From Ilex aquifolium (taxonomy: Eukaryota; Streptophyta; Magnoliopsida; Aquifoliales; Aquifoliaceae): a DNA stretch of 64,000 nt. Position 1 is the first letter of the stretch. Every line of letters begins with the position of its first letter. Shown here one piece after another: positions 32,566 through 62,440 of the stretch. Under the pieces are notes generated by a model, which saw nothing but the letters and a program-made list of their open reading frames with translations, did not search any database and was not told where the DNA came from. The stretch is taken from positions 28,365,311 through 28,429,310 of the forward strand of contig OX637403.1 of NCBI GenBank assembly GCA_951799425.1, in the 5' to 3' direction. The translations under genes were made by a program, and so were the position numbers.

Positions 32566-32619
32566 TTCCCACATCGAGCGCATATGAAAGAGCATTAAAC
32601 TACGACTCGAGATATAATA
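32566..32619 (+). promoter_or_regulatory. USE + TATA promoter of U2-1
   Basis: USE TTCCCACATCG at 32566-32576 and TATA-like ATATAATA at 32612-32619. The USE-TATA gap is 35 nt, and the TATA box begins 31 nt before the RNA. In plants this longer spacing marks Pol II snRNA genes. The flanking sequence is diverged from the main array and resembles that of U2-9. Confidence 0.85.
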
Positions 32620-32642
32620 GAGCAGAAACATCAAATTAAAGC

Positions 32643-32838
32643 ATACCTTTCTCGGCCTTTTGGCTAAGATCAAGTGTAGTATCTGTTCTTATCAGTTTAA
32701 TATCTGATACGTGGGACAATGTCCCACACGATATTAAATTAATTTTTTTCAGGGGGAGAGTTCACCACAATAGCTTGCTATTGGGATTCTTGAGTGTCGC
32801 CTTTGCGTTGCACTATTGCATGGGCCTGGCGCACCCCA
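32643..32838 (+). ncRNA. U2: U2 spliceosomal snRNA, copy U2-1
   Basis: A full-length 196-nt U2, starting ATACCTTTCTCGGCCTTTTG. The branch-point recognition word GTGTAGTATCTG is intact, followed by the conserved ATCAGTTTAATATCTGATA stem, the Sm-site region AATTAATTTTTTTCAG, and the 3' stem-loops ending GGCCTGGCGCACCCCA. U2 snRNA is known to pair with the intron branch point. The downstream CACCAATCCTAGTTTTAA resembles the plant snRNA 3' box (CA-N3-10-AGTNNAA). Small differences from the array consensus (GAGAGTTCACC, GGGATTCTTGAG) fall in the 3' half. 3' end set by alignment, plus or minus a few nt. Confidence 0.95.
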
Positions 32839-33324
32839 CCAATCCTAGTTTTAATATTTTGAAGAGAGGCAGGACATGAGTGGTTATATAATAATCATAG
32901 GAATTCACTTAAAAAGTGTAGCTAAGAATTTCTTTGAGGTCATTGTTTTTACATACATATCCAAGATTTTTTATGTAAACTTTTGATGTGAATTCAACAC
33001 ATTAATGTGGGTTGTTACAGTAAATATGAATTCGTGAATTGGGTGAGGGAAGAGTGCGAATATGAGATGATTTTGCTCATAACTTGCAAATTGACACGCA
33101 GAACGTGACAACGTCAATTTCTTTACACGAATAACGTGTCGTAGGCTATAACCTAAAAGTAATAGCAAAAAAAAAAAAAAAATGAGGCTATATCTAGAAG
33201 TGCAGATGCTCATTTGGTGACCACTGATTGCAAGAGATGTCCAATGGTTACGGGTTCATCTCTATAAAGTTTGAATCCCCATAAAGTTTATAATATAACA
33301 AGTATTAAGTTCTGGTAAAGTGTT
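32839..33324. other. Spacer between U2-1 and U1-1
   Basis: AT-rich, diverged from the corresponding spacers elsewhere in the array, with an A15 run at 33167-33181. No gene. Confidence 0.5.
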
Positions 33325-33367
33325 AGAAGTTATTAAACTAGAAAGTCCCAAAGCCTCTCCTTTATAG

Positions 33368-33417
33368 ATCCCACATCGAAGCTATAAGAGAGAAGGCAAG
33401 GTAAGTGAGATGCATAT
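33368..33417 (+). promoter_or_regulatory. USE + weak TATA promoter of U1-1
   Basis: Perfect USE ATCCCACATCG at 33368-33378 and GCATATGG in the TATA position (33412-33419). The other U1 copies have GCATATAG there, so the TATA element of this copy is weaker. Confidence 0.8.
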
Positions 33418-33443
33418 GGGAGATGGTCAAGCAATTGTAGAAC

Positions 33444-33605
33444 TTACTTACCTGGACAGGGTCAATAGGTGATCAAGAAGGCCTATGGCCTAGGTTGGTG
33501 ACCTCCATTGCACTTGGGAGGGGTACCTGCCTAAGGTCTATCCAAGTGGTAGATCCTATGTCATAATTTGTGATAGTAGGGGCTTGCGTCCGCGCAGCCC
33601 TTTCT
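33444..33605 (+). ncRNA. U1: U1 spliceosomal snRNA, copy U1-1 (variant first base)
   Basis: About 162 nt matching plant U1. The 5' end reads TTACTTACCTGGACAGGGTC; all other copies start ATACTTACCTG. The segment that pairs with 5' splice sites (ACTTACCTG) is intact; only the first base is changed. Stem-loop I word GATCAAGAAGG, the CCTCCATTGCACTTGG region and the Sm-like ATAATTTGTGATAG are present. The last stem GGGGCTTGCGTCCGCGCAGC has TCC where others have TTC in the loop. The 3' end is approximate. Confidence 0.93.
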
Positions 33606-33725
33606 CCAACATCTATTTCAAAGTTTTTTTTTATTTGGGTTGTTAATATTAATTCAAAGTTTTTTTTTTGTTTGGGTTTTTAGTATTATTTTGCTTTTTT
33701 AATGGGTCATCATTTGCTATTGCTG

Positions 33726-33812
33726 ACCAATGGACTTTTGGTTCGGGTGTTTCTTATCTTATGAAGACTTTATCTTCTTGAGATCAAGGGTTTAAGTTCC
33801 CTTAAAAAAAAA
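33726..33812 (+). mobile_element. Short SINE-like insertion downstream of U1-1
   Basis: 87 bp with an A9 tail and a box B-like ATCAAGGGTTTAAGTTCCC. Identical 11-bp repeats TGCTATTGCTG flank it (33715-33725 and 33813-33823). Other array units lack it at the same position (for example near 52330), confirming an insertion. Confidence 0.85.
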
Positions 33813-34324
33813 TGCTATTGCTGTCAATCCTTATTGTGCTTGGCATGTTTAATCTCTTCAGCTGGAACAATGGTGGAATTATTGATTGCACCATCTCTTT
33901 GACAATTTCTGGACGGTTATAAAGTGACAAAATCATGTTCTCACCCTCCTCATCACACACACACACAAAAGAAATAAAAGGCATAGCATGATATTTTAGA
34001 ATAAAAATACAACGGTGTCTTTAATTTGATGATATAATTTAGAGACATAATTCATTATCGTTATTGTATTAGCGATGAAATATCATATAATGTTGAGATC
34101 CACAACTAATTTAATAGTAATAGTGCATTCAATCTTCAAATTAGGTTCGAATAACATTTTTTCATATACTCAAGTAATAAATGTTAAGTTGTTCAACCAA
34201 ATAGCCATACTTGAGAATATATCTTTCCCAATATTCTCTTTGTTATTAGATCAAGCCTCAACAACTACGTAGAAATTTTTTCTACATTTACCTTAAGAAT
34301 AAAGTTAGATTCATTGTGTCAATC

Positions 34325-34560
34325 TAGATGTTGAGAACTGTTGGAGTACATTAACTATAAAATGGGAAACAATTGATTCCATTGTGATAAGGATTCCAAC
34401 ATTACCTGAAATGATATGTCTTGAAAACATTAGTGAAATTCATAAGCCAACTCTATAAAAGAGAGAGGATCCTATTATCAGTCTGTTAGTTGTTTAAGAA
34501 GATGATAATTCTTTCTAGCTTCCTCAACCACTTGCTTCCCAGAAAAGAGACCTTTCTCAA
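34325..34560 (+). other. Conserved TATA-bearing block upstream of U2 genes
   Basis: A block of about 240 bp running from ATGTTGAGAACTGTTGGAGT through CTCTATAAAAGAGAGAGG to a GA microsatellite. It recurs in units at about 42243, 48193, 52998 and 58735, about 480 bp upstream of U2. It contains a good TATA box (TATAAAAG) and a TGTTGGA start, reminiscent of an LTR fragment or a further transcription unit. I cannot decide between these. Confidence 0.5.
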
Positions 34561-34803: not shown

Positions 34804-34999
34804 ATACCTTTCTCGGCCTTTTGGCTAAGATCAAGTGTAGTATCTGTTCTTATCAGTTTAATATCTGATACGTGGGACAATGTCCCACACGATATTAAAT
34901 TAATTTTTTTCAGGGGGAGGGTCCACCACAATAGCTTGCTATTGGGATCCTCGAGTGTCGCCTTTGCGTTGCACTATTGCATGGGCCTGGCGCACCCCA
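34804..34999 (+). ncRNA. U2: U2 spliceosomal snRNA, copy U2-2
   Basis: Full-length 196 nt, matching the array consensus throughout: ATACCTTTCTCGG start, GTGTAGTATCTG branch-point pairing word, GGGGGAGGGTCCACC and GGCCTGGCGCACCCCA end. Intact USE/TATA upstream and a 3'-box-like sequence (CACCAATCCTAGTTCTAA) downstream. A good candidate for an active gene. Confidence 0.96.
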
Positions 35000-35513
35000 C
35001 CAATCCTAGTTCTAATATTTTGAAGAGAGGCGGGGCATGGGTGCAACTCAATGCCTATTTCATCTGTTCTTCCATATCCTAAAGAATCAATGGTGCCGTA
35101 GGAATTGATATCTACGTTCACAGTATGTATCTAAAGTTCTGCCATACTCACATCTTGATGGCCAAGCTAGAATTTCCATCTAGGGAGGGGAGGGGAGGGG
35201 TTTGGGAGCTAGCCACTACATCTATAGAGGTATCAACTCGAATTGATACGTTAACGCGAATTGACAAGATACGATTCTAAAATTGACACGATTATTAAAT
35301 ATACATAAATGATCTAAATTAATGTTTGACATTTAAAGCATCTCCAATCAACCATGACTCAAATTTAGATTCAAATTTAAGTAAAAAGTTTGATTTCGTA
35401 TAAAACACTTCAATGGGTAAACTAAAATATCTACTCAAGTATATATCCTCTCTCATTTTCCTGTCTTCATTCGCTCCCCAATATTATAAAAAAAAATCTC
35501 TCCAATTAAAACA
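35000..35513. other. Spacer after U2-2, start of a conserved foldback-like segment
   Basis: The segment from about 35231 (TAGAGGTATCAACTCGAATT) pairs with the region just before 41013 (ending ACACGAATTGAAACCCCTA). Together they form the ends of an old hAT-like foldback of about 1 kb present in every unit (also 43.15-45.56, 48.99-51.74 and 53.98-54.96 kb). In this unit the Helitron is inserted inside it. Confidence 0.5.
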
Positions 35514-38500: not shown

Positions 38501-40310
38501 ATAAAGACAATGTATAACTCCGATTAATACATATCGATACGAAAAATCAGCAAATCAGGTGATTAAAGTAAACAACAAATCCGAGAAAAATTCTGATCAA
38601 CCAAGATAACAAATCAAAAAATCACAATACCCCAATTTTTTCACATAACCTTACATAAATAATCAAACCACCAACCATATACCAAATGAATGCATAACTA
38701 ATGCTGTCAACCAAACCATTATTAATGAACCAAATAAACACCAAAAAAAAAATTCAAAATTCACTTCTTGAATTTTTTTTAGTTAATGCCCGTGCTTGAA
38801 AGCACTGTGTAACAAAATAAAAAATAATAATTTTTAAAAAAAATGACCATCAGCACAAATGTCCCTCACAACTCATGTGGTAGCCAAAACACCATCAACC
38901 ATCCACGTCCATATAAAAATCAAACCAGACCACCACCACCAGTTATGTTCTATCCACCACCTCAAGTTAGAAACTTTTTATGGCATTTCATCAAGCAGAA
39001 TCTGTGAGCATGAATTTGGGGCTTTTGGCCGAATAGATTATGGGAACACATTGAGAGAGAGAGATAGAATCTGTGAGCTTGAATTTTTGTTATAATTGTG
39101 TGTAATGTGCGTGTATGTGTGCTGTGTGTTGTGCGTGCTCTGTGTGTGTATGGTATGTTGTGCGTTTATGTGTTGTGCGTGCTCTGTGTGTGGGTGAGAT
39201 GAGTGTGTGCGTATAGTTAGGGGAATAGAGCTAGAGGCATTTTGTCGAACAACTTTTGTGCATGATGTGTGTATGTCCTGTGTGTGTTAAGCAGTCAACA
39301 GAGAGAGAAACAGAGAGAGAGGGAGAGAATTAGAGAGTTGTGAGGTACCTGGTATGCTTGCGCGCAAAATGAGCAGCGGAATGAGAAATGAGCAACATAG
39401 ATACAACAGTCAGAGAGAGAGTCACCTATAAAACCCATGTGGAATATAAAAATCATTAAATTCAATACACCACAGTCAAAAACACAAACACAAAAGCCTT
39501 GTCCACCCAAGCCCTAATTATCAAACAGAATATGAGCAAAACTCTAATAATTAAACAAATTAGGGAAGGCATTAAATAGACCTAGATCATCAAACACAGT
39601 TCGTAGCAATACAATCAACAAATTCCATGAACATAAATAAATAGATAAATGAGGCACCTAATAACATTCAAGAATTCACCAGTGAATGGGTGTTGGCTTT
39701 TGTGAGTGTGTATGTGTGGTGTGCGTGAGTCGAACATCTGTGTGCACAAGCTGTGAGGAACAACAAGAGGGTTTTCGGGTCTTAGAGAAAAAGAGAAAAA
39801 AAGGGAGATAAGATGTGTGTAAGAGAGACACCTGGGCAACTGCTGGCTGTTGTTGGTAGTGGTCGTGGCAGTGGCGTTGCTTCGTAGAAGAGGGCAGCGA
39901 TAGAGAGAGGCATGAGAGAGATATTTGACAGAGGGGGGAATATCTGAGATTGGGAGAGAGAGGCAGAAGTGAGATTGAGATGGATTCCATAAGAGAGATT
40001 TTGGGGATGAGTTTGGAAGGCAGAGATAAAGGCGTGAGAGATTAGGAGAGAGAGGCAGAAGTGAGATTGGGAAATATTTGAGAGATTTCGGATGAGAGAG
40101 AGAGAGGCGTGAGTCAGGAAATGTTGTTGGGTGGGAAAATAAAATTCAGTACTCATTGTAGATCGTCGGATCAGTATTTATGAGATGATTTGAACCGTCT
40201 TTTATGTTGAGATTACATTGTCCGTTGGATGTGTTTATATTTTGTCTCAAAACGATCTGGACCTCTCTTTGTCTCCAAAATTCAAACTCAGCTCTACTTT
40301 ATTATATAGA
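35514..40310 (-). mobile_element. Helitron (non-autonomous), minus orientation, carrying a solo LTR
   Basis: Read on the minus strand, it starts TCTATATAATAAAGTAGAGC (plus 40310) and ends CTAG (plus 35517-35514), inserted between A and T. Other units carry the empty site, for example TTTTAAAACA|TGTTTCTTAT at about 43422-43437. The 4797 bp include a 2051-bp solo LTR. The right part (39.0-40.3 kb) is GA-rich and shared with the related Helitron at 49354. No helicase or replication-initiator gene is present. Several GA-derived open frames are artefacts. Confidence 0.85.
36449..38499 (+). mobile_element. Solo LTR (probably chromovirus/Gypsy) inside the Helitron
   Basis: 2051 bp bounded by TGTAACGCCCC and GGGGTGTTACA, with identical 5-bp repeats CATAA at 36444-36448 and 38500-38504. 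Ends, length and lack of internal coding fit a solo LTR left by recombination of a Gypsy element of the Tekay/Del type; the family is inferred from the ends. It contains a two-copy tandem of about 55 bp near 37315-37430 (GAAAAGTTTATACCCAC...) and four copies of the palindrome CTACCGGTAG at 38155-38232. The + strand orientation is arbitrary. Confidence 0.85.
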
Positions 40311-41282
40311 TGTTTCTTATAAACTTCACAAATATTAACCAAAAGAAAATTAAGGAATACCAATTTCTTTGAGTGGTAGATTCATAAGTTTTTTACCTTC
40401 TAAAGTAACTTTCGTCTAAAGCAATGAAATTTTTAAAATTATCTACTCAATATCAACTAACAGTATTTCTGGTTTTCAATTCTGTCTAAAACAACTTCTG
40501 TCTAAAGCTATTCCATATGAGAGAGAGATTTTGAGAATGAGAGTTTATGAGAGAGAAAAATGGTAAAAAGAGAGATGAAGTATAGAGAGAGATATATATA
40601 GAGTAAAAAGTTACTTTAGAAGAATAGAGACTAGGAGAGGAGATGTGGTCAGGGACGATGGTAGTGGCTTTGAAGACACAGGTAGGAGAGACAAGAATTT
40701 GTACCATTAAAGGAGTCTTTTGGGTTTGGATAGAATAAAAAGTTACCGTTGAAAACTTGATATAAGATTTGAGTCTCCCTTAATTTGGGTCCAAAATAAA
40801 TTTTGCCTTGATTTGATATAAGTTTAGGTCTAATGTTGGAGAAATTTTTTGGGTCATTTTGACTCAAATTTAAATAAGTTTAGATTTGAATCAGGGTTGA
40901 AGATCCTCTTAGAATACACTAATTATATATTTTTTTTTTCGTTGGTCTTGACATGAACATGACACGAATAATAATGACATAACACACGGATCACATGACA
41001 CGAATTGAAACCCCTAATCTATACTATATGAAGTCTCTTTCTTCTTGAGATAATACTTTGATATTTCTATTAACATGGCATCAGATTTGGCCAAGGACCA
41101 GCTAAAATGGTTATGAACATTCACTGAAGCTGATAGAGGACCTAAGCAGTTTTCACAGTTCCCTTCTTTTTTATGTTTTTCAGCTAAGTGGTGCCCAATC
41201 CCTCTTTAACATATTTATTAGCCAGACCATGTTGCCAATAGAAGTTATTAAAATAGAAAGTCTCAAAGCCTCTCCTTTATAG

Positions 41283-41334
41283 ATCCCACATTGAAATTAT
41301 AAGAGAGAAGGCAAGGTAAGCCAAATGCATATAG
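41283..41334 (+). promoter_or_regulatory. USE + TATA promoter of U1-2
   Basis: ATCCCACATTG at 41283-41293 (consensus C changed to T at the tenth base) and GCATATAG at 41327-41334, 29-32 nt before the RNA. Confidence 0.8.
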
Positions 41335-41358
41335 GAGATGGTCGAGCAAATGTAGAAC

Positions 41359-41520
41359 ATACTTACCTGGACAGGGTCAATAGGTGATCAAGAAGGCCTA
41401 TGGCCTAGGTTGGTGACCTCCATTGCACTTGGGAGGGGTGCCCGCCTAAGGTCTGCCCAAGTGGCAGAGCCTATGTCATAATTTGTGATAGTGGGGGCTT
41501 GCGTTCGCGCAGCCCTTACC
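41359..41520 (+). ncRNA. U1: U1 spliceosomal snRNA, copy U1-2
   Basis: About 162 nt starting ATACTTACCTGGACAGGGTC. The 5' splice-site pairing segment, loop I word GATCAAGAAGG, CCTCCATTGCACTTGG, Sm-like ATAATTTGTGATAG and the final hairpin GGGGGCTTGCGTTCGCGCAG are all intact. The 3' end is approximate. Confidence 0.95.
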
Positions 41521-42480
41521 CAACATCTATTTTAAAGATTTTTCCCTCATGAGGATGAGGAATTGGGTTTTTTGTATTGTTTTGCATTCTTAATGGGTCA
41601 TCGTCTGTTATGGCTGTCAATCCTTATTGTGCTTGGCATGTTTAATCTCTTGAGCTGAAACAATGGTGGAATTATTGATTGCACCCATCTCTTTGACAAC
41701 TTCTGGCTTCTGCAAGACCGGTTATAAAGTGACAAAATCATGTTCTCTCTGTCTCTCTATCTCACACACACAAGAAACAAGTATAGCCTGATATTTAGAA
41801 TAAAAATATAATTATTCTTAACTTGATGATATAATTTGGAGACATAATTCACTACTATCATTAGATTAGTAGTGAAATTTCATATAATGTCGAGATCCAC
41901 TACTAATTTAATAATAACGGTGTATTAAGTCTTCAAATTAGGTCTGAATAATATTTTTTTTATATAATCAATCATATGTAATAAATATTAATTAGTTGTT
42001 CAATCAAATAGTCATAATTGAGAATATCTCTTTCTTAATATTCTCTTTGTTATTGTTGAACCCCAGTTCATTGAAAAAAACTTCTTTACTTCCCCCCTTC
42101 TCTCCATTTTAGAACAAAATAGTTTATTCGAGGGGTTAAGGATTTGTCCACTCTAAGACACAACTTTAAGTCTAGTCTCAACAACTACGTAAAAAAAAAA
42201 TTTCTCCAAGAATAAAGCTAGATTCATTGTGTCAATCTAGATGTTGAGAACTGTTGGAGTACATTAACTATAAAATGGGAAACAATTGATTCCATTGTGA
42301 TAAGGATTCCAACATTACCTGAAATGATATGTCTTGAAAACATTAATGCAATTCATAAGCCAACTCTATAAAAGAGAGAGGATCCTATTATCAGTCTGTT
42401 AGTTGTTTAAGAAGATGATAATTCTTTCTAGCTTCCTCAACCACTTGCTTCCCAGAAAAGAAACCTTTCTCAATTAAGCT

Positions 42481-42484
<4 letters not shown>

Positions 42485-42532
<48 letters not shown>
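42485..42532. repeat. (GA)n microsatellite upstream of U2-3
   Basis: About 24 GA repeats at a site that carries a variable GA tract in every unit (about 34570, 48441, 53243 and 58975). Confidence 0.95.
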
Positions 42533-42535
<3 letters not shown>

Positions 42536-42663
42536 TAATTTAAAAACTTAGAAAGATGCCACCACATTTGGCATCTTATTGAAGTGGACAAAAGTAGTGG
42601 GGACCAGGGAAAGACATTGCATAAATAATTGAGGTGAGAAAAGAGATTGTTTTAGCTAAGCCA

Positions 42664-42715
42664 ATCCCACATCGACTACACATGAGAGAGCACCTAACTC
42701 CGCCTTGATATATAA
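42664..42715 (+). promoter_or_regulatory. USE + TATA promoter of U2-3
   Basis: USE ATCCCACATCG at 42664-42674 and TATATAA at 42709-42715, with 34 nt between and 32 nt from TATA to RNA. Confidence 0.9.
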
Positions 42716-42740
42716 GAGAAACGAAACATCAATTCAAAGC

Positions 42741-42936
42741 ATACCTTTCTCGGCCTTTTGGCTAAGATCAAGTGTAGTATCTGTTCTTATCAGTTTAATA
42801 TCTGATACGTGGGACAATGTCCCACACGATATTAAATTAATTTTTTTCAGGGGGAGGGCCCACCACAATAGCTTGCTATTGGGATCCTCGAGTGTCGCCT
42901 TTGCGTTGCACTATTGCATGGGCCTGGCGCACCCCA
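42741..42936 (+). ncRNA. U2: U2 spliceosomal snRNA, copy U2-3
   Basis: Full-length 196 nt with an intact promoter. It differs from U2-2 by GGGCCCACC in place of GGGTCCACC, the form also seen in U2-9. All functional words are intact. Confidence 0.96.
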
Positions 42937-43723
42937 CCAATCCTAGTTCTAATATTTTGAAGAGAGGCAGGACATGGGTGCAACTCAATGCCTATTTCAT
43001 ATCCTAAAGATTCAATGGTGCCGTAGGGATTGATATCTACGTTCACAGTATGTATCTGAAGTTCTGCCATATTCACATCTTGATGACTAAGCTAGAATTT
43101 CCATCTAGAGAGGGGAGGGCGGGGGGAGGGGTTTGGGAGCTAGCCACTAGGTATCTACCCGAATTGATACGTTAACACGAATCTGACACGATACGATTCT
43201 AAAATTGACATAATAAATAATCTAGATTAATATTTGACATTTAAAGCTACTCCAACCAACCATGACTCAAATTTAGATTCAAATTTGAGTAAAAAGTTTG
43301 ATTTGGTATAAAATACTTTAATGGGTAAACTAAAATATTTACTCAAGTATCTCCCATTTTCCTGTCTTCATTCGCTCCCCAATATTAAAAATAAAACAAA
43401 AAAAAAAGCTCTCCAATTTTAAAACATGTTTCTTATAAACTTCACAAATATTAACTAAAAGAAAATTAAGGAATACCAATCTCTTTGAGTGGTAAATTCA
43501 TAAGTTTTTTACCTTCTAATGTAACTTCCGTCTAAAACAATGGAATTTTTAAAAATATCTACTCAATATCAACTAAGAGTATTTCTTATTTTCAATTCTG
43601 TCTAAAACAACTTTTGTCTAAAGCTAATCCATATGAGAGAGAGATTTTGAGAATGAGAGTTTATGAGAGAGAAAAAGGGTAAAAAGAGAGAGATGGAGTA
43701 TAGAGAGATATATATCTATCTAT
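42937..43723. other. Spacer after U2-3
   Basis: Conserved unit spacer: a G-rich run near 43110-43135, the start of the foldback-like segment, then the empty site of the minus-strand Helitron at about 43428. It ends in GA- and TATC-rich repeats where the next Helitron inserted. Confidence 0.6.
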
Positions 43724-47317: not shown

Positions 47318-47479
47318 ATACTTACCTGGACAGGGTCAATAGGTGATCAAGAAGGCCTATGGCCTAGGTTGGTGACCTCCATTGCACTTGGGTGGGGTGC
47401 CCGCCTAAGGTCTGCCCAAGTGGCAGAGCCTATGTCATAATTTGTGATAGTGGGGGCTTGCGTTCGCGCAGCCCTTACC
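47318..47479 (+). ncRNA. U1: U1 spliceosomal snRNA, copy U1-3
   Basis: About 162 nt, essentially identical to U1-2. One visible difference is CTTGGGTGGGGTGCC for CTTGGGAGGGGTGCC in the stem III region. The 5' splice-site pairing segment and last hairpin are intact. Confidence 0.94.
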
Positions 47480-48593: not shown

Positions 48594-48604
48594 ATCCCAC
48601 ATCG
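48594..48604 (+). promoter_or_regulatory. Orphan USE of the deleted U2-4 promoter
   Basis: Perfect USE ATCCCACATCG, but the TATA box and RNA start that should follow have been removed by the 81-bp deletion. Confidence 0.8.
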
Positions 48605-48626
48605 ACTACACATGAGAGAGCACCTA

Positions 48627-48785
48627 TATCTGTTCTTATCAGTTTAATATCTGATACGTGGGACAATGTTCCACACGATATTAAATTAATTTTTTTCAGG
48701 GGGAGGGTCCACCACAATAGCTTGCTATTGGGATCCTTGAGTGTCGCCCTTGTGTTGCACTATTGCATGGGCCTGGCGCACCCCA
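48627..48785 (+). pseudogene. U2: U2 snRNA pseudogene, copy U2-4 (5' truncated)
   Basis: Begins at TATCTGTTCTTATCAG, position 38 of U2, and runs to the normal end. Compared with U2-3, the stretch equivalent to 42697-42777 (TATA box and first 37 nt of RNA, including the branch-point pairing word) is missing; the junction is CACCTA|TATCTG. A few further changes (GTTCCACACG, CCCTTGTGTTGC) suggest decay. It cannot make a working U2. Confidence 0.93.
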
Positions 48786-49353
48786 CCAAGTCTAGTTCCA
48801 ATATTTTAAAGAGAGGCACGACATGGGTGCAACTCAATGCCTATTTCATCTGTTCCATATCCTAAAGAATCAATGGTGACGTAGGGATTGATATCTACGT
48901 TCACAGTGTGTATATAAGTTCTGCCATACTCACATCTTGATGGCCAAGCTAGAATTTCCATCTAGAGAGGGGACGGCGGGGGGAGGGGTTTGGGAGCTAG
49001 CCACTACATCTATAGGTCAACTCGAATTGATCTGTTAACACGAACTTGTCACGATACGATTCTAAAATTAACACGATTATTAAATACACATAATTAATGG
49101 TCTAAATTAATGTTTGACATTTACAACATCTCCAACCAACCATGACTCAAATTTAGATTCAAATTTGAGTAAAAAACTTGATTTCATATAAAACACTTCA
49201 ATGGATAAACTAAAATATCTACTGAAGTATATATCTTCTCTCATTTTAATTTTTCACACCAAAATATTATATCGTCTCTCATTTTCTTGTTTTCATTCCC
49301 TCTCCAATATTAAAAATAAAACAAAAAAGAAAAAGCTCTCCAATATTAAAACA
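48786..49353. other. Spacer after U2-4
   Basis: Conserved array spacer with a G-rich run near 48965-48985 and the start of the old foldback-like segment. No gene. Confidence 0.5.
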
Positions 49354-51035
49354 CTAGCAATTGTCCGTGCCTGAATGTACTATATAACAAGTAAAAGACT
49401 CAATGTTTCAATAGTTTGGAAAAAAATTGATCTACCAAAAAAAGTTGAAAGAGCAAAACATATTATTGATAATATTGTAATTTCAATAAATGTCAATAGG
49501 TCAAGAATAAAACAAAGTTGATCACCACTGTCACTGTAACATTGAACAAAAAGTAAAAAATATTACCTAACTAATAACCATCACCACAACGCCACATGGG
49601 AAAAAACCCAACTGATCGCAAAAATAAAACCCAGTTAATCATCACTGTTGCCCCCCAACAAAAGAAAAGCAAAAGCCTAGCTAATTGCAGCCAGCACAAC
49701 AAAAAAAATAAAATAAAATCAAACCCGAATAATGGATCAGGTTTGAATTGCAATTAGCTAGGCTTTATTTTAAAAAAGACCATCGAATATCTTTGTTTCA
49801 ACCATACACCATTACCACCCGGCAACATAGCAAAAATACAACTCAATAAAAGAAAAATGTAGTGGGCATTTTATCAAACATATATAATGCAACATATAAA
49901 AAAGAATAAGGATAATTTCTAAGGGTGCAGAAGGGTGGTTGGGAGGCTCTGGGTTTACAAAAAAGTGAGGGGTTATGGGTTGGGGTTGGTTTATGGTGGA
50001 TTTGTAGGTGGGGCTACGATGGGCAATTGAATGAGTGAGAGAGAGAGAGTAAAGGACATACATGTCGGGTTAGTGGCTGGTGGTGGTGGACGGAGGCAAC
50101 AATAGAGAAGTGAAACACGCTCATTGTCATCCAAACAATACCGCAAACAAAAAGGGATCAACATAACACATATAAAAGACAACAATATACGAATCACACG
50201 TACCTGAAGTAGAGATCGAGCAATGAGGAAATTGAAACAAAAACAACAGATCTAAAGTGATAAGAAGGGGCAAAAAATTGAAACAAAAAAAATCAAATAA
50301 TCATGGTCTAATCAAGAAGGGGCAGAAATCAAATAATTGTTGAAACCAAATACAATCTGTGGGTGGGTTTCGCACACAACAATGCGTGTATGTAGGGGTT
50401 TTGTGTGCTGTGAATGTGTGTGTATTTGGGGGGGGGGGGGGGGGGTTAATGGTTGTGGGCGACTTTTTGTGTGTGAGTCGTAGGGGACTCTGGATTGGGG
50501 TGAGAGAGATAGTACCTGGTAGAAAGGCAAGAGAGAAAGAAAACTGAGGAAATAGAGGAACAGAGATAGAGAAAGGGAGAGAGAGCAAAACCTGGTATTG
50601 CCAGTGGCGGTGGCGAGGTCGCTGGTAGAGAGAGAGAGTGTGTGAGAGACAGACGTAGTATAGATATGAAAATGGGAGATATGTATTTTGGGTGGGACTG
50701 AGTGAGAGACGTACATGTATGAGAGATTGAGATAAGTCTTTGAGAGACGTACAAGGATAGAGGCGTGAGAGATTGAGAGAGAGAGGCAGAAGTGAGAGAC
50801 GTATAGGGATAAAGGCGTGAAATATTGGGATAGAGAGCCAAGAAATGTTGTTGGGCGGGAAAACAAAATTCAATACTCATTATAGACTGTTGGATCAGTA
50901 TTTATGAGATGATCTGAACCGTCTTTTTTTATTGGGATTACGTTGTCCGTTGGATGTGTTTATGTTTTGTCTCAAAACGATCTGGACCCCTCTTTGTCTC
51001 CAAAATTCAAATTCAGCTCTACTTTGTTATATAAA
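49354..51035 (-). mobile_element. Helitron (non-autonomous), minus orientation, same site as in unit 1
   Basis: 1682 bp inserted at exactly the same unit position as the 35514-40310 Helitron. It has the same minus-strand 3' end (GGCACGGACAATTG then CTAG) and the same GA-rich right part, but no solo LTR. Its minus-strand 5' end is mutated to TTTATATAACAAAGTAG. It contains a G-run (50428-50445) and GA tracts that create spurious open frames. Confidence 0.8.
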
Positions 51036-51970
51036 TGTTTCTTATAAACTTCACAAATATTAACCAAAAGAAAATTAAGGAATACCAATCTTTTTGAGTG
51101 GTAGATTCATAAGTTTTTTACCTTCTAAAGTAACTTCCGTCTAAAGCAATGTAATTTTTAAAAATATCTACTCAATATCAACTAACAGTATTTCTGGTTT
51201 TCAATTCTGTCTAAAACAACTTATGTCTAAAGTTATTCCATATGAGAGAGAGAGAGAGAGATTTTGAGAATGAGAGTTTGAGAGAAAAAGGGTAAAAAGA
51301 GAGAGATGGAGTATAGAGAGAGATATATATAGAGTAAAAAGTTACTTTAGAAGAATAGAGACCAGGAGAGGAGGTGTGGTTAGCGATGATGGTAGCAGCT
51401 TTGAAGACACAGGTAGGAGAGGCAAGAACTTGTTCCATTAAAGGAGTCTTTTGGGTTTGGATAGAATAAAAAGTTACTGTTGAAAACTTGATATAAGATT
51501 TGAATCTCCCTCAATTTGAGTCTAAACTAAGTTTTGCCTTGATTTGATATAAGTTTAGGTCTAAGGTTGGAGAAATTTTTTGGGTCATTTTGACTCAAAT
51601 TTAAATGAGTTTATATTTGAGTCAGAGTTGAAGATGCTCTTAGAACACACTAATTATATATATTTTTTCGTAGGCTTTAACATGACCATGACACGAATAA
51701 TAATGACATAACACACAAATCACACGACAAGAATTGAAACCCCTAATCTATACTATATGAAGTCTCTTTCTTCTTGAGATCATACTTTGATTTTTCTATT
51801 AACATGGTATCAGATTTGGCCAAGGACCAGCTAAAATGGTTATGAACATTCACCGAAGCTAATAGAGGACCTAAGCAGTTTTCAGGGTTCCCTTTTTTTT
51901 TTTTCTGTTTTTCAGCTAAGTGGTGCCCAATCCCTCTTTAGCATATTTATTAGCCAGGCCATGTTGCCAA
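51036..51970. other. Conserved spacer of unit 3
   Basis: Array spacer shared with the other units (CTTCACAAATATTAACCAAA to AGCCAGGCCATGTTGCC). It shows the empty sites of the unit-2 Helitron and hAT element. Confidence 0.6.
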
Positions 51971-52014
51971 TAGAAGTTATTAAACTAGAAAGTCTCAAAG
52001 CCTCTCCTTTATAG

Positions 52015-52066
52015 ATCCCACATCGAAACTATAACAGAGAAGGCAAGGTAAGTCAAATGCATATAG
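52015..52066 (+). promoter_or_regulatory. USE + TATA promoter of U1-4
   Basis: Perfect USE ATCCCACATCG at 52015-52025 and GCATATAG at 52059-52066, starting 32 nt before the RNA. Confidence 0.88.
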
Positions 52067-52090
52067 GAGATGGTCGAGCAAATGTAGAAC

Positions 52091-52252
52091 ATACTTACCT
52101 GGACAGGGTCAATAGGTGATCAAGAAGGCCTATGGCCTAGGTTGGTGACCTCCATTGCACTTGGGAGGGGTGCCCGCCTAAGGTCTGCCCAAGTGACAGA
52201 GCCTATGTCATAATTTGTGATAGTGGGGGCTTGCGTTCGCGCAGCCCTTACC
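52091..52252 (+). ncRNA. U1: U1 spliceosomal snRNA, copy U1-4
   Basis: About 162 nt starting ATACTTACCTGGACAGGGTC with all conserved parts intact and a perfect USE. It differs from U1-2 by AAGTGACAGAGCC for AAGTGGCAGAGCC. One of the best candidates for an active U1 gene in this window. Confidence 0.96.
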
Positions 52253-52495
52253 CAACATCTATTTCAAAGATTTTTCCCTCATGAGGATGAGGATTTGGGT
52301 TTTTTGTATTATTTTGCTTTCTTAATGGGTCATCATATGTTATGGCTGTCCATCCTTATTGTGCTTGGCATGTTTAATCACTTCAGCTGTGAAACAATGG
52401 TGGAATTATTGATTGCACCATCTCTCTCTTTGACAACTTTTGGCTTCTGCAAGACCGGTTATAAAGTGATAAAATCATAAGTGATAAAATCATGT

Positions 52496-52528
<33 letters not shown>

Positions 52529-53240
52529 AGAAAAAAGCATAGCCTGATATTTAGAAGAAAAATACAATTATTCTTAATTTGATGATATAATTTGGAGACA
52601 TAATTCACTATTGTCATTGGATTAATAGTGAAATCTCATAGAATGTCGAGATCTACTACTAATTTGATGATAACGGTGCATTAATTCTTCAAATTATGTC
52701 TGAATAACATTTTTTTTATATAATCAATCATTTGTAATAAATATTAATTAGTTGTTCAACCAAAAAACCATACTTGAGAATATCTCTTTCTTAATATTCT
52801 CTTTGTTATTGTTGACTCTCCTGTTCATTGAAAAAAACTTCTTTATTTTCCCCTCTCCCCCTCGTTTTAGAACAAAATGGTTTGTTCGAGTGGTTAAGAA
52901 TTTGTCCATCCTACGGCGCAATTTTAGGTCGAGTCTCAACAACTACGGAGAAGTTTTTTCTCCATTTACCTTATGAATAAAGCTAGATTCATTGTGTCAA
53001 TCTAGATGTTGAGAACTGTTGGAGTACATAAAAATGGGAAACAATTGATTCCATTGTGATAAGGATTCCAACATTACCTGAAATGATATATCTTGAAAAC
53101 ATTGATGCAATTCATAAGCCAACTCTATAAAAGAGAGAGGCTCCTATTATCAGTCTGTTAGTTATTTAAGAAGATGATAATTCTTTCTAGCTTCCTCAAC
53201 CACTTGCTTCCCAGAAAAGATACCTTTCTTAATTAAGCTC

Positions 53241-53242
<2 letters not shown>

Positions 53243-53301
<59 letters not shown>
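53243..53301. repeat. (GA)n microsatellite upstream of U2-5
   Basis: About 29 GA repeats, the longest of the variable GA tracts in the array. Confidence 0.95.
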
Positions 53302-53304
<3 letters not shown>

Positions 53305-53420
53305 TTAAAAAGATGCCACCACATTTGGCATCTTATTGAAGTGGACAAAAGTAGTGGGGACCAGGGAAAGACATTGCATAAATAATTGAGGTGAGAAAAG
53401 AGATTGTTTTAGCTAAGGGA

Positions 53421-53472
53421 ATCCCACATCGAATACACATGAGAGAGCACCTAAGTCCGCCTTGATATATAA
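53421..53472 (+). promoter_or_regulatory. USE + TATA promoter of U2-5
   Basis: USE ATCCCACATCG at 53421-53431 and TATATAA at 53466-53472; spacing as in the other U2 genes. Confidence 0.9.
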
Positions 53473-53497
53473 GAGAAACGAAACCTCAATTCAAAGC

Positions 53498-53693
53498 ATA
53501 CCTTTCTCGGCCTTTTGGCTAAGATCAAGTGTAGTATCTGTTCTTATCAGTTTAATATCTGATACGTGGGACAATGTCCCACACGATATTAAATTAATTT
53601 TTTTCAGGGGGAGGGTCCACCACAATAGCTTGCTATTGGGATCTTCGAGTGTCGCCCTTGCGTTGCACTATTGCATGGGCCTGGCGCACCCCA
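53498..53693 (+). ncRNA. U2: U2 spliceosomal snRNA, copy U2-5
   Basis: Full-length 196 nt, intact in every conserved part, with a perfect promoter. Minor differences from U2-2 are GGGATCTTCGAG and CGCCCTTGCG. Confidence 0.96.
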
Positions 53694-55144
53694 CCAATCC
53701 TAGTTCTAATATTTTAAAGAGGCATGACATGGGGTGCAACTCAATGCCTATTTCATCTTTTCTTTCAAATCCTAAAGAATTAATGGTTTCGTAGGAATTG
53801 AAAAAGCTATGACGTTGAATTAAAAGTTGATCATGTTAGAGAATTTATAAATTAGGAGGGAGATTACTTCAATTGTTCTGAAAATATCATAAACTTAAAG
53901 GGATTAAATGGCAAATTCGAAAAGTTAGAAAAGAAAGAGAGAGGGGGGGGGGGGGGGGGGGAGCTAGCCACTACATTTATAGAGGTGTCAACTCAAATTG
54001 GTCTAAATTGACATGATTATTAAATATGCATAATTAATAGTTTAAATTAATGTTTGACATTTAGAGAATCTCTAATCATTACTCAAATTTAGATTCAAAA
54101 TTGAGTAAAAAATTTGATTTTTTATAGAACACTCAAATAGGTAAACTCAAATATTCTCTCATTTTAATTTTTCCCACCAAAATATTTTATTCTCTCTCAT
54201 TTTCCTTTCTTCATTCTCTCTCCAATATTAAAACAAAAAAGAAAAGGCTCTCCAATATTAAAATATGTTTCTTACAAACTTCACAAATATTAACCAAAAG
54301 AAAAATTAGGAATACCAACCTCTTTGAATAGTAGATTCGTGAGTTTTTTACCGTCTAAAACAATGAAATTTTTTAAAATATCTACTCAATATTAACTAAC
54401 AGTATTTCTGGTCTTCAATTCCGTCTAAAACAACTTTTGTCTAAAACAATTCCATATAAAGAGACGAGAGGGAGATATTTTTTTAGAATGAGTTTATGAG
54501 AGAGAAAAAGGGTAAAAAGAGGGAGATAGAATATAGGGAGAGATATGTATAGAATAAAAAAGTTATCCTCGAAGAATAGAGATCAGGAGAGGCGATGTGG
54601 TCAGTGGCGATGACAACGGTTTGAAAGACAGAGGCAAGAAAAGCAAGAACTTGATCCATCGAAGGAGTTTTTTTTGGTTTGGATAGAATAAAAAGTTTCT
54701 ACTGAAAATTTGATATAAGATTTAGGTCTCCCTTAATTTGGGTCCAGAATAAGTTTTGTCTTGATTAGATATAAGTTTGGGTTTAAGGTTGGAAATTTTT
54801 TTTGGGTCATTTTGACTCAAATTTAAATGAGTCTAGATTTCAGTAAAGGTTGAAGATGCTCTTAGAATACATTAAATATATTTTTTTTTCGTGGGTCTTG
54901 ACATGAACATGACACGAATAATAATGATATAACACGCGGATCACACGACACGAATTGAAACCCTAATCTATACTATATAAAGTCTCTTTCTTGTTGAGAT
55001 CATACTTCGATTTTTCCATTAACATGGTATGAGATTTGGCCAAGGAGCAGCTAAAATGGTTATGAACATTCACTAAAGCTGATAGAGGACCTAAGCAGTT
55101 TTCAGGGTTCCCTTCTTTTTCTATTAGTCAGACCATGTTGCCAA
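53694..55144. other. Spacer after U2-5
   Basis: Insertion-free spacer. It contains a G run (53943-53961), the old foldback-like segment of about 1 kb with ends TAGAGGTGTCAACTC (53980) and CACGAATTGAAACCCTA, and GA-rich stretches. No gene. Confidence 0.6.
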
Positions 55145-55264: not shown

Positions 55265-55426
55265 ATACTTACCTGGATAGGGTCAATAGGTGATCAAGAA
55301 GGCATATGGCCTAGGTTGGTGACCTCCATTGCACTTGGGAGGTGTGCCCATCTAAGGTCTGCCCAAGTGGCAGAGCCTATGTCATAATTTGTGATAGTGG
55401 GGACTTGTGTTCGGGCAACCCTTACA
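55265..55426 (+). pseudogene. U1: U1 snRNA, copy U1-5, probably decaying
   Basis: Keeps ATACTTACCTG but shows several changes absent elsewhere: CTGGATAGGG, GAAGGCATATGG (loop I stem), GGTGTGCCCATCTAAGG, and a last hairpin GGGGACTTGTGTTCGGGCAA where pairing is weakened. Together with the damaged USE this suggests a pseudogene, though low expression is not excluded. Confidence 0.75.
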
Positions 55427-56262: not shown

Positions 56263-56458
56263 ATACCTTTCTCGGCCTTTTGGCTAAGATCAAGTGTAGT
56301 ATCTGTTCTTATCAGTTTAATATCTGATACGTGGGACAATGTCCCACACGATATTAAATTAATTTTTTTCAGGGGGAGGGTCCACCACAATAGCTTGCTA
56401 TTGGGATTCTCGAGTGTCGCCTTTGCGTTGCACTATTGCATGGGCTTGGCGCACCCCA
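56263..56458 (+). ncRNA. U2: U2 spliceosomal snRNA, copy U2-6
   Basis: Full-length 196 nt with an intact promoter. Small changes (GGGATTCTCGAG, TGGGCTTGGCGC) lie in the 3' stem-loops; the second makes a G-U pair possible. The 3' box region is altered (CCACCAAATCTAATTCCAA). Confidence 0.94.
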
Positions 56459-56671
56459 CCAAATCTAATTCCAATATTTTATATATTTTATGGGTCTAAA
56501 AAAAAATATACCTTGGGGAAGGTTTAGGTTGATGAAGATGTTGAATTTTAAATTTCCTACTGCTTGCAAGGGGGCCGGTAGTGCTTGGGGTAGCTTAATT
56601 TCAAATTTGGGCTCACAATTTCACATGAATCGAATTTCCTTTGGGCCTTTTTTTAATTGGACTATGAAAAT

Positions 56672-57590: not shown

Positions 57591-57752
57591 ATACTTACCT
57601 GGACGAGGTCAATGGGTGATCATGAAGGCCCATGGTCTAGGTTGGTGACCTCCATTGCACTTTGGAGGGGTGCCCGCCTAAGGTCTGTCCAAGTGATGGA
57701 ACCTACGTCATAATTTGTGATAGTGGGGGCCTGCGTTCGCGCGGCCCCTATC
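57591..57752 (+). ncRNA. U1: U1 spliceosomal snRNA, copy U1-6 (closest to plant consensus)
   Basis: About 162 nt starting ATACTTACCTGGACGAGGTC. It has GATCATGAAGGCCCATGG in stem-loop I and GGGGGCCTGCGTTCGCGCGG at the 3' hairpin with full GGGGCC/GGCCCC pairing, closer to the general plant U1 sequence than the other five. Perfect USE. Likely an older, well-conserved copy. Confidence 0.95.
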
Positions 57753-58400: not shown

Positions 58401-58562
58401 GGGGTAACATTAGAATAACATTTTTTTTATATAATCGATCATATGTGATAAATATTAATTACTTGCTCAACCAAATAGCCATACTTGAGAATATCTCTTT
58501 CTTAATATTCTCTTTGTTATTGTTGAACCCCTGTTAATTGGAAAAAACTTCTTTACTTCCAA

Positions 58563-59204: not shown

Positions 59205-59399
59205 ATACCTTTCTCGGCCTTTTGGCTAAGATCAAGTGTAGTATCTGTTCTTATCAGTTTAATATCTGATACGTGGGACAATGTCCCACACGATATTAAA
59301 TTAATTTTTTTCAGGGGAGGGTCCACCACAATAGCTTGCTATTGGGATCCTCGAGTGTCGCCCTTGCGTTGCACTATTGCATGGGCCTGGCGCACCCCA
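59205..59399 (+). ncRNA. U2: U2 spliceosomal snRNA, copy U2-7 (one-base deletion)
   Basis: 195 nt: one G is missing from the GGGGGAGGG run after the Sm-site region (TTTCAGGGGAGGG). Otherwise like the consensus, with a perfect promoter. The missing base lies between the Sm site and stem-loop III and may be tolerated. Confidence 0.93.
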
Positions 59400-60008
59400 C
59401 CAATCCTAGTTCTAATGTTTTATGAGTTGGAGTGCTTATGCCATTGGTAATTACATAGATCAATTGTTTAATTAGATAAACATGATTCTTCTAGATTGCA
59501 AATCGAAGCTTTGTATGGCATATCCCATAAGGGGTGAAGCTAAAATTTCGAACTTAGTGTGCCATTATATTTACTTTTTTTTACAAGCTTGAGCTCAGAT
59601 ATTAATCATTGTAGCTTGAATGAATTTAAAACATGTCTCTTGAGGAATAAGTGTAGCTGTCCCTTAGGAGATACAAAAAATATTGAACGATTTTTGGGTT
59701 GCTAGAGACCAAGATCGACCACTGAACTATAGATGTGAGAGGGCATTAGATTAACATTTATATTATACTACTTACTATCAACTTAAATTTTTAGAACAAT
59801 TGTGATTGACAAGGAAGCCACTTCTATAATTACTAAGAAAAAACATTAAAATTAAAGCCAATTAACAGAAATTTCGAAAAAAAAAATCATGTAATTGGCG
59901 TAGGTATCCAATGATAATGGAGAATATATACAATAATCTGAGGACAGAAAGTTGCGACATTAGCCAAATAATATGGGTGGTGAACAAAGGGGCACTTGAA
60001 ATACCTTT
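59400..60008. other. Spacer after U2-7
   Basis: No gene. Its first 85 bp (GAGTTGGAGTGCTTATGCCA...) recur downstream of U2-9 at about 62270-62332. Confidence 0.5.
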
Positions 60009-60056: not shown

Positions 60057-60080
60057 CGGAGTCAAACAATATTTTAAAGT

Positions 60081-60260
60081 ATACTTTTCTCGGCTTTTTG
60101 GCTAACAAGTGTAGTATCTGTTCTTATCAGTTTAATATCTGATACATGGGACAATGTCTCACATGATATTAAATTAATTTTTTTAGGGGAGGGTCCACCA
60201 CAATAATTTGCTATTGGGGCCCTCGAGTGTCGCCCTTGCGTTGCACTACTGGCTCACCTA
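60081..60260 (+). pseudogene. U2: Divergent U2 snRNA, copy U2-8
   Basis: Starts ATACTTTTCTCGGCTTTTTG; GATC is deleted (GGCTAACAAGTGTAG), but GTGTAGTATCTGTTCTTATC is kept. Later changes include ACATGGGACAATGTCTCACA, CAATAATTTG and GGGGCCCTCGAG. The 3' end is truncated: TTGCACTACTGGCTCACC lacks the GGGCCTGGCGC stem. Most likely a pseudogene of an older U2 lineage. Confidence 0.85.
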
Positions 60261-61407
60261 GTTTAAATATTTGAAGAGTAACAATAAAATTATACATTAT
60301 GGATAAAACTCTGTAGGAAGGTGTAGGCTGAATAAGATGTTGAATTTCGAATTTCCTACTGCTTGCAAGGAGGTTGGTAGTGCTTGGGGTAACTTAATTT
60401 CAAATTTGGGCTCACAATCTCACATGAATCGAAAGATCCTTTGATTCTCATTTGAATGGTCAAAATCTAATAATATCGGCACATTTAGTCAATTCAAAAA
60501 ACACGATTGAACCTTCAATTGTGACCCTCGTCTAAGCCCATTTTTTCAATTTTCCTTGGTGCTAATAAAAAATTATTTTTGCCCAAAAAGCTAATGGAAA
60601 GGCCGTTTAATAAGCCTGAGTCTAAACGAACCACACTTCTTGTCCTCTAAATCCAAAAAAAAAAACTGAGGTTTTCAATCAACTTCAAACAGACTCAATG
60701 TCCAATTTGAAGGAACAGGGTAAAACGAAGAGTATTTTCAACTGTGATTTTTATTTTAGAGAGCATCTTTAGTAAAAAGTTACAATATATGGTGAATTTT
60801 TACGCACCACTCTAATAGATCTCTCTATTTTTATCATTTTATGTTGTCATTTTTGAAAATAAATGTGACTTCGCTTCTATTTTTTCTTCCATTATTTTAA
60901 ATGAGAATTGAGCGAGAATAAAGAGCCTATTGGAGATGCTCTTACAAATACTTTGAAACTAACAATGTAATTTTCTCTAACATCATTGATATCACTTACC
61001 TAATACCAATAAAACACACTCATTGTATACCTAAGATATGTGCATTCATTAATTTGAGTATATTTGTTTGAGTAATACTATTGAGACTTAAACATTTGAC
61101 ATAATTTACTAACATAATTATGCAGTTTCATTGTAACCATTAGATTAACACAAAGTTCTAATGTTTGATGGAGTTCATAGTCAATCCAAGGATTATAGTG
61201 AATTAGATCAATAAATTAGATTCCAATAACATCGTTCTATTTGTTTTGGTATAACATCTCTCGCCCATGCGCTCTCTTTGAATATTAAAGATCTCGAAAA
61301 TGATCAATCCATTGATAGGTTTGGAGGCAATTTCACCCAATAGGTTGAGGGATCTATTTGTATGTCGTTCTTGTAAAAATGTTCGTAAGTGAGAACATTG
61401 AATCAAT
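60261..61407. other. Spacer built from array-related duplications
   Basis: 60290-60430 recurs at 62455-62600 and partly at 56520-56640; 60600-60710 recurs at 57150-57250; 60715-61235 recurs at 57860-58395. No gene. Confidence 0.6.
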
Positions 61408-61640
61408 TACTAAAATACGGCACTTTTAAACTTATTTATCAATCTACGGCAGTTTTTTGAAAGCGGAATTGTTGATTCTACTTTTATGTTGAAAGCGGAA
61501 TCTACAAGACCGCTTTTAATACTTACAAAAATACATTTCTCTCTTTTTATTGTATCACTTGTTGAAAGCGGAATCAACAATTCCGCTTTTAAAACTATCA
61601 TAGATCGGTAATTAAGTTTAAAAGTGCCATACTTTGGTAT
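61408..61640. mobile_element. Foldback MITE, type F copy 2
   Basis: Left arm TACGGCACTTTTAAACTTA, with TTTGAAAGCGGAATTGTTG, pairs with right arm CAACAATTCCGCTTTTAAAA, then TAAGTTTAAAAGTGCCATA. Shares the layout and core words (AAAGCGGAAT, TTTTAAACTTATTTAT) with the foldback at 15604-15905. Confidence 0.75.
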
Positions 61641-61980
61641 TTTTGTTTGAAAAATACCGTATTTTGGTAAAGTCTATGAAATACAAATAAACGAGTAGCC
61701 CACTGCACGGTAGACCTTTTATTTTGATCTCTTTCAATATGTATTTGTTTTAGTTCCGGGGAGACTAAATTCATCCCTTATGGGAACGTTCAGAAGTCGA
61801 CACTTTCTCAAACCATCTGTGCCTTGAACTCATTGCACTGATCCAAATCAATCTGTTATTTATTTGTGTTGAATCCGTTACTTATTGATGGGGGGACCAC
61901 AAAAAAAAAGGGTCTGGGACAAAGGGAAGACAACATAAACAATTGAGGCAAAAGGAAATATATTGTTTGAAACTTATCTA
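61641..61980. other. Spacer upstream of U2-9
   Basis: No gene. The last 100 bp resemble the upstream region of U2-1 more than those of the tandem units. Confidence 0.5.
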
Positions 61981-62033
61981 ATCCCACATCGAATACATAT
62001 GAAAGTGAATTCAACTAGGACTCAACATATAAT
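61981..62033 (+). promoter_or_regulatory. USE + TATA promoter of U2-9
   Basis: USE ATCCCACATCG at 61981-61991 and TATAAT-type TATA at 62028-62033, 30 nt before the RNA. Same TATAATAGAGC form as U2-1. Confidence 0.87.
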
Positions 62034-62057
62034 AGAGCCGAAACAACTAACAAAAGC

Positions 62058-62253
62058 ATACCTTTCTCGGCCTTTTGGCTAAGATCAAGTGTAGTATCTG
62101 TTCTTATCAGTTTAATATCTGATACGTGGGACAATGTCCCACATGATATTAAATTAATTTTTTTCAGGGGGAGGGCCCACCACAATAGCTTGCTATTGGG
62201 GTCCTCGAGTGTCGCCTTTGCGTTGCACTATTGCAAGGGCCTGGCGCACCCCA
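62058..62253 (+). ncRNA. U2: U2 spliceosomal snRNA, copy U2-9
   Basis: Full-length 196 nt with intact promoter. It has CACATGATATT in place of CACACGATATT and TTGCAAGGGCC in place of TTGCATGGGCC in the 3' stem-loop. The core is intact. With U2-1 it forms the outer, diverged pair flanking the array. Confidence 0.95.
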
Positions 62254-62332
62254 CCAAGTCTAGTTCCAATATTTTATGGCTGGAGTGCTTATGCCATTAG
62301 TAAGTACTTTGATTAATTGTTTCATTAGATAA

Positions 62333-62440
62333 ACAATGTCTCATGATATTAAATTAATTTTTTTGGGGGAGGGTCCACCACAATAATTTGCTATTGGGGC
62401 CCTCGAGTGTCGCTCTTGCGTTGCACTACTAGCTCACCTA
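62333..62440 (+). pseudogene. U2: U2 fragment, copy U2-10
   Basis: Only the middle and 3' part, starting ACAATGTCTCATGATATT; it matches U2-8 (CAATAATTTG, GGGGCCCTCGAG, TTGCACTACTAGCTCACC). It is joined directly to a copy of the U2-7 downstream spacer and has no promoter. Confidence 0.88.

Follow-up and report, generated by a model that had tools for sequence, protein, structure and literature searches.

The stretch of DNA analysed here, in the following called the window, comprises 64,000 nucleotides (nt) of chromosome 13 of Ilex aquifolium, the European holly (C13:28365311-28429310), and carries an array of genes for the spliceosomal small nuclear RNAs (snRNAs) U1 and U2. Positions are given in window coordinates unless stated otherwise. 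The labels C4, C5, C9, C11, C13, C19 and C20 correspond to chromosomes 4, 5, 9, 11, 13, 19 and 20 of the assembly drIleAqui2.1 (PMC11109700); the genome searched comprised 800,232,872 bases in 103 contigs.

Genes and extent of the array

A preliminary description, made from the sequence of the window, had reported six U1 and ten U2 sequences that point in the same direction and mostly alternate. When the whole window is scanned with Rfam covariance models at their gathering thresholds, 15 matches are obtained, six to U1 and nine to U2, all on the + strand. The U1 matches score 122.8-149.2 bits (E 1.6e-30 to 3.8e-38; cut-off of RF00003, 69.5 bits) and the U2 matches 93.8-173.4 bits (E 1.9e-17 to 1.5e-36). 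The tenth U2 is a fragment (62333-62442) that is recovered by BLAST with array copies, not by Rfam; with this lone exception, the covariance models found every copy that had been listed, and number, direction and the mostly alternating order are as described. Five U1 copies had been judged intact, yet all six pass the Rfam cut-off, the one at 55265 being the weakest, and the alignment agrees with the six full-length U2 genes (197 nt) and the one missing a single base (59205, 196 nt). At a relaxed threshold (E 0.1), the scan of the window yields no further snRNA, the only additions being two sub-threshold microRNA matches. The features of the window, with letters denoting units of the array and USE the upstream sequence element of snRNA promoters, are:

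32643..32839, + strand: U2 gene, leading copy, 197 nt (RF00004, 162.9 bits; USE at 32566 with 1 mismatch)
33444..33604, + strand: U1 gene, unit A, T replaces A as first base (RF00003, 143.6 bits)
34804..35000, + strand: U2 gene, unit A, identical to the majority sequence (RF00004, 168.3 bits)
40025..43033, + strand: copied segment with U1 and U2 of unit B (self-BLAST, pairs with 50756-53801 of unit D)
41359..41519, + strand: U1 gene, unit B (RF00003, 147.9 bits)
42741..42937, + strand: U2 gene, unit B (RF00004, 165.2 bits)
47318..47478, + strand: U1 gene, unit C (RF00003, 147.7 bits)
48594..48786, + strand: U2 pseudogene, unit C (RF00004, 93.8 bits; alignment; USE within the match)
52091..52251, + strand: U1 gene, unit D (RF00003, 143.5 bits)
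53498..53694, + strand: U2 gene, unit D (RF00004, 168.5 bits)
55265..55425, + strand: U1 gene, unit E, lowest-scoring U1 of the window, some mispairs (RF00003, 122.8 bits)
56263..56459, + strand: U2 gene, unit E (RF00004, 167.1 bits)
57591..57751, + strand: U1 gene, unit F, nearest to the unit G U1 at 64541 (98.8%) (RF00003, 149.2 bits)
58411..58412, no strand: sharp junction inside unit F (BLAST blocks, X/G-type through 58410, A-E-type from 58413)
59205..59400, + strand: U2 gene, unit F, 1 base short (196 nt), top-scoring U2 (RF00004, 173.4 bits)
60081..60262, + strand: U2 pseudogene, internal and 3' deletions, weak USE (RF00004, 101.2 bits)
62058..62254, + strand: U2 gene, X type (RF00004, 171.1 bits)
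62333..62442, + strand: U2 fragment, 97.3% identical to pseudogene 60081 (BLAST)

While the cluster itself is real, the 30 kb first assigned to it fall short of its extent, as the window truncates the array, which runs on to about 79005. Five more U1 genes, all above the Rfam cut-off, lie within the first two 10 kb stretches downstream of the window, and BLAST finds three more U2 in the same two stretches, whose bodies are seen in part and score below the Rfam cut-off. The third and fourth downstream stretches of 10 kb and the 10 kb upstream contain no U1 or U2, and neither do three further stretches of this length (one more upstream and two more downstream, one of them with 2,500 N). In total, the array spans about 46 kb, from 32643 to about 79005, and its 11 U1, its 12 U2 and the U2 fragment share the + strand; no other snRNA types appear in the Rfam scans of the window and the downstream stretches. 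With the fragment excluded, 19 of 22 adjacent pairs alternate, an extent reached in 201 of 200000 shuffles. Start-to-start distances between genes vary between 0.8 and 6.6 kb, and U1-to-U2 distances range from 998 to 2383.

Some copies have decayed. In the U2 pseudogene of unit C (48594), a deletion joins the USE to the U2 body, such that the TATA region and the 5' part of U2 are gone. The U1 of unit H (L009:6801-6973), which scores 115.2 bits, has a 13-nt tandem duplication in the region of stem-loop II but retains a TATA-like element as well as its USE. In unit I, the alignment shows the U1 to be one base short in the last stem.

Tandem repeats are hard to assemble, and a false duplication or a misjoin could in principle produce such a picture. 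We find this scarcely credible: from copy to copy, the flanks diverge by anything between several and tens of percent, which far exceeds the error of high-fidelity (HiFi) reads, and the window contains no N. The assembly was made from HiFi reads and has a contig N50 of 15.2 Mb and a quality value (QV) of 64.2, as given in an excerpt of its description (PMC11109700). The array is a genuine gene cluster of a known kind, in which the pairing of U1 with U2 in a plant and the size are unusual. It has the features of a heterotypic cluster, i.e. two snRNA types that are adjacent, on one strand and equipped with their own promoters, rather than those of a uniform repeat of the RNU2 type with near-identical units of constant length, given its uneven U1-U2 distances and diverged flanks.

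Promoters

In plant snRNA genes transcribed by RNA polymerase II (Pol II), USE and TATA box lie four helical turns apart, whereas U6 and U3 genes have one turn less, according to a passage in the literature (PMC9845283). The USE core is present in all 11 array U1 promoters, exactly in eight and with one mismatch in the last two bases in three, and is followed in each case by a TATA-like hexamer after 33-34 bp. Likewise, a USE, in one case mismatched at its first base, precedes 10 of the 12 U2, with a TATA-like hexamer 34-36 bp further on, although the hexamer pattern behind both counts is a loose one. Of the others, the pseudogene at 60081 combines a weak USE with a spacing of 30 bp. Within the window, a USE followed by a TATA-like hexamer at 33-36 bp is found for six of six U1 and seven of ten U2-like sequences, in keeping with the initial statement that almost all copies have both elements at Pol II snRNA spacing. 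Allowing one mismatch, the USE motif RTCCCACATCG matches the window 15 times, against 0.68 matches expected and with none of 100 shuffles reaching 15. Thirteen of these matches belong to promoters of array genes, one is that fused to U2 48594, and one is an orphan on the - strand.

The orphan is a perfect USE (ATCCCACATCG) at 63181-63191 on the - strand without a U1 or U2 behind it. The sequence TATATATATAG begins 24 bases on, a spacing closer to the RNA polymerase III (Pol III) type, with a T run about 110 bases further along. No Rfam family scores above its cut-off at this site, which may represent a short gene transcribed by Pol III or else a motif carried by a mobile element.

RNA sequences and structure

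The 5'-terminal sequence ACTTACCTG, through which U1 pairs with 5' splice sites, is found in all 11 array U1 (with T for A at the start in unit A). GTAGTA, the branch-point recognition motif of U2, is kept in the seven whole U2 of the window and in 60081 and is gone from 48594; in the three downstream U2, this region lies outside the visible part. The seven fully visible U2 are 95.9-99.5% identical in pairwise comparisons, and 99.7% over nt 1-106. Among ten U2 copies, the two pseudogenes being excluded, identity amounts to 99.4% for nt 71-106 and 95.8% for nt 107-197 of the body, as opposed to 77% in the promoter, 43% at +41..+200 and 43-66% further out. The same holds for ten U1 (unit H excluded), with 90.9% in the body versus 69% in the promoter, 55% at +41..+200 and 47-62% further out. 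The identity of the bodies may be upheld by selection, by gene conversion or by both.

Base pairing in the Rfam models is kept in 97.8% of cells for the seven array U2 and in 96.2% for ten array U1, and for these U1 the percentage paired and the covariation score are matched by only 2 of 500 shuffles. When three dispersed U2 (from C19, C11 and C5) are added to the array U2, two-sided changes appear at ten pairs, a number reached in none of 500 shuffles; adding two U1 from C4 to the array U1 gives three such pairs (56 of 500 shuffles). The fold of U1 and U2 is thus kept in the family, but the array U2 are too uniform to prove it within the array.

These comparisons bear on the view that the array is largely silent, a graveyard of duplicated DNA, with the working genes elsewhere. 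It would fit the two broken U2, the U2 fragment, the U1 with the 13-nt duplication, the weak covariation within the array and the many more U1 and U2 matches across the genome. As the pair counts from the array are weaker than those from the mixed set, they raise the standing of this view slightly and slightly lower that of a tandem array of working genes. We nevertheless regard the graveyard as improbable, since nt 1-106 are 99.7% alike in the seven fully visible U2 despite drifted flanks, an effect that gene conversion could have as well, and since 21 of 23 genes have retained a USE and a TATA-like element.

Origin of the array

The units resemble each other far beyond the genes. In self-BLAST comparisons, unit B is 90.7% identical to unit D across 3072 aligned positions and 89.8% identical to unit C across 1506 positions, and units A and B are 89.5% identical across 1306 positions. 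By U1 comparison, units A to E form a recent group, and F to J are more diverged. Across eight units, leaving out unit C with its lost U2 promoter, the distances between U1 promoters correlate with those between U2 promoters (r 0.61; 57 of 20000 permutations), as expected if both genes were copied together; for promoter plus body, r is 0.56 (277 of 20000). The discord that remains in the unit distances arises in part because unit F is chimeric: its spacer at 57853-58410 matches the region before the X-type U2 at 62058 with 91.6% identity and, from 58413 on, matches units B, D and E. We read this chimera as a probable trace of unequal exchange between misaligned units. Retroposition was considered as a source of the copies and rejected, as promoters and flanks were copied along with the genes.

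Hence, the array probably grew by repeated local duplication, and its alternation would follow from the copying of a two-gene unit. We infer the following course. An ancestral U1-spacer-U2 pair on chromosome 13 would have been copied head to tail, and unequal exchange between misaligned units would then have created more copies, the chimeric unit and the pseudogenes, with spacers stretching unevenly. Most copies would be transcribed singly by Pol II, their RNAs would enter U1 and U2 small nuclear ribonucleoproteins, and their bodies would be kept alike by selection, perhaps together with gene conversion.

U1 and U2 elsewhere in the genome

The array does not contain all U1 and U2 sequences of holly. 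Among the 41 U2 matches listed in a genome search, 13 belong to this array, six to C11 and 22 to other places; among the 40 U1 matches listed, 10 belong to this array, 12 to C4 and 18 to other places. These tallies, in which partial copies are counted too, are minimum values, with 40 of 64 U1 and 40 of 69 U2 first-look candidates scored; the U1 at window coordinate 70801, for instance, is missing from the U1 tally, yet is an Rfam match.

Two further clusters stand out. At C4:15849107-15962194 (15.85-15.96 Mb), at least 12 U1 matches, all on the - strand, are spread over 113 kb; the two examined score 154.4 and 144.5 bits, and the 5.3 kb examined hold these two U1 and nothing else, so the cluster is homotypic as far as seen. 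At C11:20418475-20539755 (20.42-20.54 Mb), there are at least six U2 matches, all on the + strand, of which the first five are about 2-3 kb apart; their visible parts are 87-91% like the array U2, and only U2 occurs in the 9.9 kb examined. Like the array, both are same-strand rows of the same families, but differ from it in being homotypic as far as seen. Outside C13, the closest U1-U2 pair among the matches listed is 2.6 Mb apart (C10); sub-threshold U2-like matches come nearer to a listed U1 on C7 (55 kb) and C15 (1.4 Mb). Around four dispersed U2, no U1 lies within about 10 kb on either side. The holly genome thus looks to have one mixed cluster and two apparently single-type clusters.

This bears on the proposal, made in the preliminary description, that alternation couples the dosage of U1 and U2. 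One version of it holds that alternation was selected as a co-amplified cassette matching both RNAs for early spliceosome assembly. The alternation beyond most shuffles is compatible with this, as is the balance of ten U1 and ten U2 that is left once both U2 pseudogenes and the U1 of unit H are dropped, with three of these U2 partly visible. Yet copying of a two-gene unit already predicts alternation, and both genes have promoters of their own (11 of 11 U1, 10 of 12 U2). Moreover, the partners decay separately, as seen from their unequal decay, with 2 of 12 U2 broken plus one U2 fragment versus 11 U1 with one 13-nt duplication and one single-base loss. Finally, given the U1-only cluster on C4, the U2-only cluster on C11 and the scattered copies, which uncouple the totals, the array alone cannot set the U1:U2 ratio. 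Coupling is therefore not borne out, and we consider a selected cassette unlikely. A wider version is a little less likely still, namely that the locus is conserved in the holly lineage with its alternation under selection, that a copy-number change at this one site shifts both RNAs of the early spliceosome, and that variants are used at different times or in different tissues.

Neighbouring genes

About 12 kb past the last array U1, one exon of a UPF1-like helicase of the nonsense-mediated decay pathway lies at L011:6634-7311 (Pfam UPF1_Zn_bind, 4.5e-17). Within the window, an intact purine permease reading frame occupies 28022-29269 on the - strand; its best match among 2,128, at 96% identity, is a purine permease from Ilex paraguariensis. 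A charged, arginine-serine-rich reading frame at 644-1453 has no Pfam match; we take it to resemble the splicing factor BUD13.

Paralogs of neighbouring genes were followed as possible signs that a duplicated segment carries a sister array. The UPF1-like exon has a paralog at C2:1.89 Mb (80%), and C6:38.385-38.428 Mb holds paralogs of both a HAD gene (67%) and the purine permease (57-61%); further purine permease paralogs are found on C2, C3 and C5. A sister array was rejected, as no listed U1 or U2 match lies near C2:1.89 Mb or the C6 site.

Discussion

With its U1 and U2 genes in order on one strand, their promoter elements, shared flanks, bodies that are more alike than the flanks, and the chimeric unit F, the locus is, judging from its sequence, very probably a tandem array that was made by copying a U1-U2 unit and in which the Pol II snRNA genes are transcribed independently of one another. 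Several observations weigh against this interpretation. The TATA boxes of the U1 genes are weak, with the best match to TATATAA falling in the TATA region in only 3 of 11. The 3' box, for which an excerpt of the Arabidopsis study gives the consensus CAN3-10AGTNNAA (PMC545797), occurs in exact form in none of the 11 U1 and 11 U2 tested (60081 left out). With one mismatch, it is found in all 11 U2 and in 6 of the 11 U1; as about 20% of random regional sites have 0-1 mismatch, its presence in U2 is suggestive, not decisive. Within the array, two-sided changes are seen at only two pairs of the seven U2 (matched by 45 of 500 shuffles) and three pairs of ten U1 (86 of 500), the ten pairs of the larger U2 set are owed mostly to the three dispersed copies, and kinship among copies can beat such shuffles without any structure. 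Furthermore, the U1 3' flank and U2 5' flank distances do not correlate significantly (r 0.42; 1161 of 20000), and the three downstream U2 are seen in part only.

Clusters of this general kind are known. In Arabidopsis, as described in an excerpt of the study, there are seven U1-U4 clusters and one U2-U5 cluster, one U2 and one U5 have been duplicated in tandem, most major snRNA promoters have a USE and a TATA box, and duplication of an ancestral U1-U4 cluster has been proposed (PMC545797). As in these clusters, two different Pol II snRNA genes stand side by side in a plant, but each Arabidopsis cluster is a mere pair, its genes separated by 180-300 nt (U1-U4) or less than 200 nt (U2-U5) (PMC545797), whereas the holly array joins U1 with U2 in 23 genes over 46 kb. 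In some fish, such as the European hake, linked U1 and U2 genes likewise recur at a single site on a chromosome; apart from these being animals, the evidence in the passage consists of polymerase chain reaction (PCR) fragments and fluorescence in situ hybridization (FISH), without an ordered array (PMC4696792). The yerba mate genome contains 65 U1 and 46 U2 genes, the arrangement of which is not mentioned in the passage that reports them (PMC11709435).

The human RNU2 locus, so far as excerpts portray it, is similar in being a tandem row of Pol II snRNA genes, but encodes one RNA type, whereas the holly array has two alternating RNAs and diverged, uneven spacers. RNU2 units are near-identical and constant in length. 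Among the papers listed in the literature searches made, none showed a plant with a long array of alternating U1 and U2 genes, which is weak evidence of absence, as older plant snRNA work could contain one.

That one genome holds three such clusters suggests that clustering of snRNA genes in plants can go beyond the Arabidopsis picture. The large array on chromosome 13 is legible down to single bases and brings together recent and old units, a chimera and pseudogenes; counting its variants in RNA could tell whether the copies of U1 and U2 are used to the same extent. It shows how multigene families of plant snRNAs may expand and yet remain functional.

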